From NCBI RefSeq assembly GCF_000725385.1, contig NZ_CP008884.1, positions 3,286,001 to 3,350,000 on the forward strand: a DNA stretch of 64,000 bases. The letters run 5' to 3'. Shown here in pieces: positions 8,259 through 9,493 of the stretch; positions within the stretch are counted from its first letter, which is position 1, and every line of letters starts with the position of its first letter. This stretch comes from Dyella japonica A8. GTDB taxonomy: Bacteria > Pseudomonadota > Gammaproteobacteria > Xanthomonadales > Rhodanobacteraceae. The notes under the pieces are model-generated. The model was not told where the DNA came from, did no database searches, and worked only from the letters and a program-made list of their open reading frames with translations. Made by a program: the position numbers and the translations under genes.

Positions 8259-8639
8259 ATGTCTGATTACTATTTGTTGGCCGGAAGAATCTTCATCGCC
8301 TTCATGTTTGTCTTGAGTGGTTTCAATAAAGCCGTCTATTTCCAACACGGCCTGGAAGAGGTCAAGGCAAAAAATCTCCCTCTGCCACACCTCTCTCTGT
8401 TGGCAACCATCGTGGTGCAAATCGTCTGCGGCATCGCCATCATGGCTGGCCGTTTCATTACACCAGCATCCCTGGCCCTTGCGGCATTCACGCTCGCGAC
8501 TGCCGTGGTCTTCTACGACTTCTGGCGGCGTGAAGGATCCGAGCGCACCGTCATGTTCACGGGATTCCTTGAACACATCAGCATCATCGGCGGCTTCGCC
8601 ATCTTGATTGGCTCAGGTCCGGGGGCCTTCGTGCTCTAG
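8259..8639 (+). CDS. DoxX family membrane protein
   Basis: A 126-residue protein with four hydrophobic helices and the DoxX start signature (LLAGRIFIAFMFVLSGFNKA). DoxX-type proteins are found in quinone- and thiol-related membrane complexes; most bacterial members are uncharacterised. GAGGAAAC precedes the ATG. It follows the LysR gene by 30 bases and is probably co-transcribed with it. Association with pirin and LysR is common for stress-linked DoxX genes, but no function can be assigned from this sequence. Confidence 0.85.
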   Translation: MSDYYLLAGRIFIAFMFVLSGFNKAVYFQHGLEEVKAKNLPLPHLSLLATIVVQIVCGIAIMAGRFITPASLALAAFTLATAVVFYDFWRREGSERTVMFTGFLEHISIIGGFAILIGSGPGAFVL

Positions 8640-8732
8640 CCACCTGGGCAAGAGTTCGTCGAATCGCATCGCTTGTGGGGCGAGATGTGGAGTGACGTGC
8701 CTTTTCCAAGGCAACAAAAAAAGCCAAAAAAT

Positions 8733-8768
8733 GGGCCTATTTGCAAATCCGGGGGAGAGAGTGGGATT
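8733..8768 (-). repeat. Degenerate copy of the tRNA-Ser 3' end and its terminator
   Basis: This 36-base segment repeats 8916-8949, which covers half of the tRNA-Ser terminator hairpin and the tRNA's 3' acceptor/T-arm strand. The shared core GGAGAGAGTGGGATT is exact, and the rest matches with four substitutions and a two-base insertion. The offset is 181 bases, on the 3' side of the tRNA. The repeat stops at the T-loop, so it cannot form a tRNA. It is either a remnant att site or a tRNA-linked repeat like those distal to E. coli tyrT. Confidence 0.7.
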
Positions 8769-8771
8769 GTC

Positions 8772-8872
8772 GGGTGCATCCATGCACCCAAGCCCTCCGC
8801 GCTATGCGCTACGGGGCCAGCCTTCGGCTGTCCAAATTCGTTCCTGACGAATTTGTCGAACCCGAGTGGGTT
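8772..8872. repeat. String of four small hairpins between tRNA-Ser and its partial copy
   Basis: Four inverted repeats sit head to tail in 100 bases: GGGTGCAT/ATGCACCC (8772-8789), CAGCC/GGCTG (8818-8830), CAAATTCG/CGAATTTG (8833-8855) and AACCC/GGGTT (8859-8872). There is no credible open frame. The arrangement suggests a structured RNA segment downstream of the tRNA rather than spacer DNA. Confidence 0.55.
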
Positions 8873-8890
8873 CTCACCCAGTCTTTCCAT

Positions 8891-8932
8891 CAGATACGCA
8901 AAAGCCCCCATACGGGGGCCTTTGCGTATCTG
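8891..8932 (-). terminator. Long hairpin terminator of tRNA-Ser
   Basis: A 19-base stem (CAGATACGCAAAAGCCCCC against its complement, one G:T-type mismatch) with the four-base loop ATAC lies directly after the tRNA-Ser gene. It overlaps the encoded CCA end by two bases, so the hairpin competes with the mature 3' end and may help position processing. In tRNA sense the stem ends with a GCTTTTG run, a weak T-tract. Confidence 0.7.
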
Positions 8933-9020
8933 GCGGAGAGAGTGGGATTCGAACCCACGGTAGGCTTACACCTACGGCAGTTTTCAAGACTGCTGCCTTA
9001 AACCGCTCGGCCATCTCTCC
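8931..9020 (-). tRNA. tRNA-Ser (anticodon TGA)
   Basis: A complete class II tRNA. The acceptor pairs GGAGAGA with TCTCTCC, followed by discriminator G and an encoded CCA. The D arm begins GCCGAGCGG, the anticodon loop is CTTGAAA giving TGA for UCA codons, the long variable arm folds as GTAGGTGTAAGCCTAC, and the T loop is TTCGAAT. It lies about 480 bases downstream of serS on the same strand, an unusual but sensible pairing of a tRNA with its charging enzyme. Confidence 0.97.
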
Positions 9021-9060
9021 GTTTCTGGTTTTGCCCAATGACTGGGGCGGGCCCTCAAAG

Positions 9061-9090
9061 TCACTGGATTCCTGCCTTCGCAGGAATGAC
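9061..9090. repeat. Single REP-type extragenic palindrome
   Basis: A 30-base unit (stem ATTCCTGCCTTCGCAGGAAT within it) between the tRNA gene and the next gene. It is the same sequence as the right arm of the paired element at 28252-28280. No second arm is visible here, so it is a lone half-element. Confidence 0.75.
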
Positions 9091-9130
9091 GGGCCAAGGG
9101 TCGGCGCGTCGTTGCGGGGTGGCCATCCTA

Positions 9131-9493
9131 TCAGGAATGGCTCGCCGTTCCCCGCCCTTTTTTCGACAGGGCGATCATCGCCCACAGCATGATGCCCACC
9201 GGCACCGCTGCACCGACCAGCGGGAGCAGCAGTACCGGCTGGCGGATGACCATGGGTACGAGCTGGGTAGCGGCGGCGAAGGTGATGATGCCGAAGCGCA
9301 GGGCACGGCTGGTGCGGGCGAACCAGAAGGCGCCGATCACCAGCACGGTGGCGATGAGGCTGAGTACCAGGTCCACCGTGGGGATGGGGAACATGGTCCA
9401 CAGCCCCAGGCGGGTGAGCAGCTCGGTGGCAAGGATGGTCAGCAGCGTGTAGCTGGCGGTGAGTTCGACCTTGTCCCAGCGCGTGCTGCTCAT
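9131..9493 (-). CDS. Hypothetical four-helix membrane protein
   Basis: A 120-residue protein that I do not recognise. Four hydrophobic segments are visible (about residues 12-32, 40-60, 66-84 and 88-108) and the C-terminus is short and basic (SKKGRG). It starts 10 bases after the serS stop on the same strand, so it is probably the second gene of a serS transcript. There are no conserved catalytic motifs and no cysteines. It could be a lineage-specific membrane protein; no function can be proposed. Confidence 0.75.
   Translation of the reverse strand: MSSTRWDKVELTASYTLLTILATELLTRLGLWTMFPIPTVDLVLSLIATVLVIGAFWFARTSRALRFGIITFAAATQLVPMVIRQPVLLLPLVGAAVPVGIMLWAMIALSKKGRGTASHS

Follow-up and report, generated by a model that had tools for sequence, protein, structure and literature searches.

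A probable member of a family of small palindromic elements in gammaproteobacteria, which the E. coli tyrT repeats appear to match, lies behind a Dyella japonica tRNA-Ser gene

The tyrT locus of E. coli carries 178-bp repeats that are linked to the RtT RNA; they have long been puzzling and have been treated as an E. coli curiosity. RttR is annotated as an ncRNA in E. coli, and of 5426 genomes of this species, 4695 match a 191-base stretch with its gene, at 1 to 14 places in each. Small palindromic elements are known from Rickettsia, where they (RPE) insert in-frame in protein genes, as described in the available part of PMC10969869, and, according to an excerpt of PMC8144298, CsrA interacts in vitro with sRNAs whose genes lie between the dual terminators of rRNA operons in E. 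coli. No description of the element family reported here was found in the literature searched, which covered few subscription papers; PMC4853749, to judge from the portion available, has another subject.

We analyzed a window of 64,000 nucleotides from Dyella japonica A8, by which we mean the whole stretch of DNA. On its minus strand lies a tRNA-Ser(TGA) gene with an encoded CCA (9020-8931; ARAGORN, and Rfam RF00005 with 61.1 bits), and this tRNA alone matched Rfam at curated thresholds at the locus. According to the original prediction, the 3’ end of the tRNA recurs 181 bases downstream with an exact 15-base core, and the tRNA call and our repeat scan agree with this. A 50-nt direct repeat (8719-8768 and 8900-8949) has a spacing of 181 and an identity of 74%, and the 15-mer GGAGAGAGTGGGATT occurs at 8754 and 8935 and at no other place in the window on either strand. 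Reading on from the tRNA, always on the minus strand, the fold predicts a long GC-rich trailer hairpin (8930-8893, GATACGC...GCGTATC) that is terminator-like and has four T only. It is followed by an arm roughly antisense to the 3’ half of the tRNA, with TGAGAA replacing the T-loop (8893-8864), and by a short repeat, in sense orientation, of the T-arm’s 5’ half (8863-8856, GGGTTCGA), which is the left flank of the core. The structured core itself, delimited by two covariance models and by covariation, comprises 87 bp (8855-8769) with hairpins P3-P6 and GGA in the P3 and P6 loops. Its right flank repeats 15 bases of the tRNA 3’ end exactly (AATCCCACTCTCTCC, 8768-8754) and is likely an att-site copy left by an island, and the next bases (8753-8663) form a remnant that resembles the left end of integrase-type islands (matches to L225, L236, and L230).

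The antisense arm, behind which stands an inverted repeat with 33-nt arms that are 85% complementary, is a second relation to the tRNA end that the original prediction did not name, and in the predicted fold it pairs both with the tRNA 3’ copy and with the T-arm copy. Relatives of the segment are, by eye, arranged likewise, with the arm, the T-arm copy, and the tRNA 3’ copy around the core. The small hairpins announced between the two copies are well supported by folding: the segment (231 nt including the trailer hairpin) has an RNA MFE of -109.9 kcal/mol with a z of -6.2, which none of 200 shuffles equalled. The window locus holds one element unit. A simple terminator scan of 8600-9150, where shuffles average 0.7 sites, gave one terminator-like site, a hairpin past the element and inside the island-end remnant (8738-8721, -), and no call for the trailer hairpin (8930-8893, -). 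Because that hairpin has just four T and no terminator was called there, a read-through RNA is plausible. Two ORFs (8866-9192 and 8741-9001, both +) read the antisense strand of the tRNA, with peptides such as RVGFEPT, and look like artefacts of the tRNA sequence.

The original prediction had counted the absence of such a segment after other tRNA genes as a point against itself; the search found the segment in the own genome and in related genomes, and this objection fails. In the own genome, relatives of the segment follow tRNA-Ser(CGA), tRNA-Ser(GCT), and tRNA-Gln(CTG), making four tRNAs with that of the window, and at tRNA-Ser(GCT) three units of ~180 bp stand in tandem. By blastn the segment has matches in 42 of 61 genomes (the own genome and 60 relatives), and an exact pattern scan limited to a single genome of each species gave 72 stretches, mainly from Dyella and Rhodanobacter. 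Several congeneric loci proved identical to Dyella loci over the 100 bases that were compared (4/4 pairs), and we take the genus to be Dyella on this basis. We searched more widely with two covariance models, an earlier one (R1), which has the window copy among its training sequences, and one built from a class-wide alignment (R2). R1 matched the window element at 8876-8761 with 124.6 bits, its own training copy being scored here, and R2 gave it 90.4 bits. Matches to R1 were present in all 20 genomes of the genus, own included, in 122 of 200 genomes of the order and in 158 of 369 from the class, where no more than 10 candidates were scored for each genome, and R2 at E<=1e-6 found 75 of 299 genomes in the phylum. 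Read from tables, occupancy in the genus within 400 nt was 17/20 genomes at Ser(CGA) and 16/20 at Ser(GCT); at Ser(TGA) it was 9/19 genomes having the pattern. Genus loci without a downstream element had been meant as a negative control for both models, and these held copies in anticodon loops upstream of the tRNA; once six true copies were removed, the best residual R1 match was 7.4 bits in 51 kb. The window segment is one copy of a small hairpin-rich element found next to or within tRNA genes of many gammaproteobacteria.

At E<=1e-6, R2 has 12 matches in the own genome. Three matches of ~52 bits (G000:C1:4740029-4740124, 883383-883478, and 4205644-4205739) may belong to another subfamily. 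Plasmid searches with 72- and 181-bp queries, which are of low sensitivity, gave no element match, and the phage search with the same queries matched two Salmonella records. There is an R2 copy in a Salmonella houtenae gene annotated as M42 glutamyl aminopeptidase (L220:1480-1582), and two neighbouring R2 copies lie in an unannotated 2.9-kb Salmonella record (L221:1067-1282).

Across the family, the core measures ~75-90 bp, has four hairpins, and usually lies between ...GA and A.... We aligned 78 sequences (alignment A1), leaving out 16 blast stretches without the TTCGAC anchor, 10 with an unplaced end, and 33 above the similarity cut. This alignment supports four hairpins, with 93.6% of cells paired and 152 two-sided changes against 37 in shuffles. 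In 124 matches from the order and class (118 distinct, in an alignment fitted to the model) 94.0% were paired and two-sided changes numbered 639 against 163 shuffled; the values for 45 further matches were 93.7%, and 224 against 61. The P3 loop contains GGA in 77/78, 120/124, and 41/45 of these sequences and the P6 loop in 75/78, 117/124, and 43/45, compared with 0, 4, and 0 for the loop of the middle hairpin, P4. At the tRNA-Ser(CGA) loci of the genus, where 15 sequences including two second tandem copies were compared, compensatory changes were also found in place: they numbered 26 cells, whereas 1000 shuffles averaged 7.9 and did not exceed 15. G-U makes up only 0.9, 0.8, and 1.1% of stem pairs in the sets of 78, 124, and 45 when one conserved G-U position is excluded (4.2, 2.3, and 1.9% when it is included), and other mismatches account for 5.2, 4.9, and 4.3%, part of them from one outer pair that is unformed in many sequences. 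As a control we took 119 tRNAs of the loci studied, whose acceptor and T stems have 3.4% G-U and 0.2% mismatches. The small share of G-U in the element stems suggests that the palindromes are kept up at the level of DNA.

Where the element sits was examined in several sets. Among 76 sites, 52 have an intact tRNA on the same strand within 700 nt upstream of the element (22 Ser(GCT), 12 Ser(CGA), 11 Ser(TGA), 6 Ser(GGA), and 1 Arg(CCG)). We inspected 23 of the other 24 by eye: in 17 the core lies in the T-loop of a second tRNA copy (GGTTCGA / core / AATCC), with an intact tRNA beginning just downstream in most, and the others consist of remnants of tRNA trailers or ends, or are too close to the stretch end to judge. 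A set of 124 matches came from 78 loci that were for the most part selected by score: the 30 best of the order, 28 of the class, and 20 hand-picked from the list. Within 600 nt, the nearest tRNA was on the same strand in 104 cases and on the opposite strand in 3, and 17 matches had none. A second set of 45 matches, from 20 loci included largely because they hold copies distant from tRNAs, gave 12 same-strand, 2 opposite, and 31 without a tRNA within 600 nt. GA stands immediately left of the C of the core in 104/124 and 37/45 of these matches, and always in the 78 of A1, by selection. Other loops of the tRNA are occupied as well: the core lies in the D-loop at L170, L171, L180, and L199 and in the anticodon loop at L144, L150, and L209. 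Although eight tRNA-Ser(TGA) loci of the genus (L222-L229) lack an element right downstream, six loci (L224, L225, L226, L228, L230, and L236) have one in the anticodon loop of a partial tRNA-Ser copy upstream of the intact tRNA-Ser(TGA), twice in tandem at L228. Beside tRNAs, then, the intact gene stays next to a partial or interrupted copy.

Many copies of the element also lie in protein genes (L200, L201, L202, L207, and L208; Methylococcus genome G357 and genome G346). G357, whose helicase is listed as Methylococcus sp. Mc7, has copies in the reading frames of this helicase and of a PglZ protein (Pfam), and in the helicase they stand in both orientations. Compared at the level of protein, the three insertion sites of the helicase are empty in 12, 9, and 12 of the 14 proteins aligned with it, which were chosen from 120 listed. 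The copy at L208 is in a sequence provisionally named serine-recombinase-like, whose frame is open over 138 codons, with no spanning ORF of 250 aa. The peptides that the protein-gene copies encode look like ...NLDSRQAGPEGAASMDG.... A seventh R1 copy in the own genome (C1:1857943-1858051, - strand; L203:4944-5052) stands where a likely metallo-hydrolase ORF begins; by eye, ~55 bp of target are duplicated there and an intact gene start remains, whereas the Methylococcus sites have no such duplication.

The DNA past the second tRNA copy has a separate history. The original prediction took it for part of the tRNA terminator; instead, the ~90 bp beyond the exact 15-base copy are like the left ends of islands at tRNA-Ser(TGA) in three congeners. 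Counting the 15-mer, which these matches include, window 8770-8663 (-) matches the island left ends of G001 (L225) over 107 bp at 78%, G004 (L236) over 98 bp at 79%, and G005 (L230) over 68 bp at 87%, and that of G013 over a shorter 56 bp at 86%. In G005, the tRNA-Ser(TGA) and its trailer are followed by an integrase gene (DUF6538 and Phage_int_SAM_1), and the element is found past the distal end of the island insertion, 15.7 kb from the tRNA; in G007 the element is 19 kb from tRNA-Ser(TGA). In G001 and G004 the island left end is followed by a DUF6538 N-terminal frame, which is truncated where the available sequence stops. The order in G004 is tRNA, hairpin, element, AATCCCACTCTCTCCGCCA, and island end, like the window except that CCA is kept, and in the island-free G016 the tRNA-end copy decays after AATCCCACCC. 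Because its far side matches island left ends and G004 has the same order, the exact 15-base copy is best read as the attachment-site scar of a lost island, placed against the element. An exact repeat of a tRNA end can thus be the stacked product of two unrelated elements.

The original prediction had also likened the segment to the E. coli tyrT repeats by its spacing, and the comparison extends further. By eye, the tyrT region has its parts in the same order as the window locus. R1 and R2, neither of which had E. coli in training, both matched four of four tyrT repeats in a 2.4-kb E. coli region searched beside other loci: 26.0, 24.2, 20.6, and 13.6 bits with R1 (E 1.8e-6 to 0.021) and 33.8, 31.8, 28.1, and 23.4 bits with R2 (E 1.1e-7 to 1.1e-4), all E-values of covariance models being rough. 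The R2 search gave one other weak match, L224 at 27.0 bits, which is a true anticodon-loop copy, and with L224 removed the best residual match was 10.5 bits, in the window outside the element. In the reverse direction, all four E. coli repeats obtained 133-138 bits from the Rfam RtT model (RF00391), which had no match in window 8640-9100 up to E 5 or in L015-L017 up to E 0.1. From these sequence comparisons, the tyrT repeats seem to belong to the same family as the window element. A further Rfam family, sX4 (RF02223), has as its consensus a tRNA-Ser plus a trailer whose last bases, GGGGGGUGAGA, are those with which the element arm begins; it scored 61.2 bits at L015, against a gathering value of 70, and 23.8 in the window. 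At L015:656-819 this family model appears to be the tRNA-Ser(CGA) gene plus trailer, ending where the element arm starts.

We hypothesize, with a probability of roughly 0.7, that the segment belongs to a gammaproteobacterial family of small palindromic elements with present or past mobility, that the tyrT repeats match this family, and that an island scar lies beside the copy. The presence of the core in protein genes together with the few G-U pairs points to a DNA element. Much of the same evidence would also be expected of a functional RNA linked to the tRNA and released from its transcript like E. coli RtT, for example one that binds RsmA/CsrA through its two GGA loops: the strong covariation of the stems, GGA conserved in P3 and P6 and almost absent from P4, the location mostly on the strand of the tRNA, the retention at Ser(CGA) in 17 of 20 genus genomes and the in-place compensation at those loci, an annotated ncRNA in RttR, an sX4 model that reads through tRNA-Ser into the element arm, and the sole scanned terminator-like site lying after the element. 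Furthermore, CANGGANG presumably resembles a CsrA site. However, G-U is rarer than other mismatches in the element stems, the reverse of the tRNA control; copies inside protein genes, found in either orientation, retain the GGA loops; and the E. coli copies, by eye, have no GGA loops. We keep a functional RNA as a rival explanation, though an unlikely one. The original prediction of a structured RNA rather than an att scar was in part a false choice, in that the 15-base copy is bounded by an island-like end, but its structured core is real; core copies in protein genes and scarce G-U favor DNA over RNA for that core, and an RNA product may be made from it as well.

An attachment scar by itself, with the repeat as attL and attR of a lost island and the hairpins as its debris, would agree with the integrase-type islands at the same tRNA in congeners and with the match of the 3’ copy and ~90 bp to their left ends. 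Such a scar leaves unexplained that the structured segment follows other tRNAs too and occurs in tandem, and that G005 has it on the other side of the island, away from the tRNA. As an account of the whole segment it is improbable; we rule it out for the core and accept it for the 15-base copy. The same division applies to the relative that the original prediction had thought could overturn it, one with an integrase insertion bounded by the 15-mer: the island left ends in three congeners come close to this for the 15-base copy and not for the core. Plain duplication of the tRNA or chance, with no element at all, is hardly credible. Partial tRNA copies do belong to the pattern, but a homologous core recurs in 158 of 369 class genomes and covaries strongly, and the genome-wide family excludes a chance repeat.

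In the mobile-element reading that we favor, the element would move through a single-stranded DNA intermediate and would enter hairpin loops, with a preference for the coding strand displaced where a tRNA gene is strongly transcribed. A partial duplication of the target would keep the tRNA intact, and tandem arrays would grow by recombination between the repeated tRNA ends. At the window locus, an island would have used the tRNA end beside the element as its attB, before or after arrival of the element, and its loss would have left the scar. Any read-through RNA, for which RttR is the E. coli parallel, would have come as a by-product or have been gained later. As mover we tried a Y1 transposase (PF01797), which we take to be of the IS200/IS605 type, and found too weak a link to adopt it: the gene is present in 109 of 158 carriers and in 107 of 211 non-carriers (odds 2.2, p 4e-4, with kinship ignored), a weak association, and 49 carriers lack any Y1 transposase. 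At the junctions printed for inserted copies, we saw by eye no terminal inverted repeats with a short target duplication, whereas longer duplications do occur beside tRNAs and at the protein-gene copy of the own genome. The proposed mechanism does not explain the antisense arm with TGAGAA and the partial target duplication. Two observations that count against mobility, the 104:3 strand bias beside tRNAs and the in-place compensation at Ser(CGA), also fit selection on RNA, and membership of tyrT is weakened by low scores (13.6-33.8 bits), rough covariance-model E-values, and the lack of GGA loops in E. coli.

A bolder version, which we consider doubtful though worth stating, is that the tyrT repeats and these segments make up one ancient class-wide family that inserts in the single-stranded loops of tRNA hairpins (D, anticodon, and T) by an undescribed mode of transposition, with arms complementary to the target, and that has been the source, in tRNA operons, of sRNAs such as RtT. 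If the tyrT repeats do belong to a family present in 158 of 369 class genomes, their origin becomes testable and RtT RNA gains a comparative frame. An element that enters tRNA loops and yet leaves an intact tRNA would, if true, be a system for the study of loop-targeted insertion.

Known systems each cover part of this locus. The CsrA-interacting sRNAs in the excerpt of PMC8144298 offer an analogy only. A tyrosine-integrase island scar accounts for the 15-base tRNA 3’ copy and the flank to 8663, which match island left ends, but not for the hairpin segment. The sX4 model reads through tRNA-Ser into the start of the element arm and does not include the core. RPE and MITEs differ in the class of host in the case of RPE, and in that our element prefers tRNA loops, has an antisense arm, partially duplicates the tRNA, and shows no terminal inverted repeats; they are alike in being small palindromic elements that also stand in-frame inside protein genes, with several insertions facing empty sites in homologues (the helicase and the Ser(TGA) loci of the genus). 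The tyrT/RtT repeats have different hairpin sequences without GGA loops (by eye) and a tRNA-Tyr instead of a tRNA-Ser, and otherwise, by eye, share the layout of our family: units that follow a tRNA and occur in tandem, with an antisense T-arm containing GATGAGAA, a sense AAGGTTCGA, hairpins, and a copy of the tRNA 3’ end.
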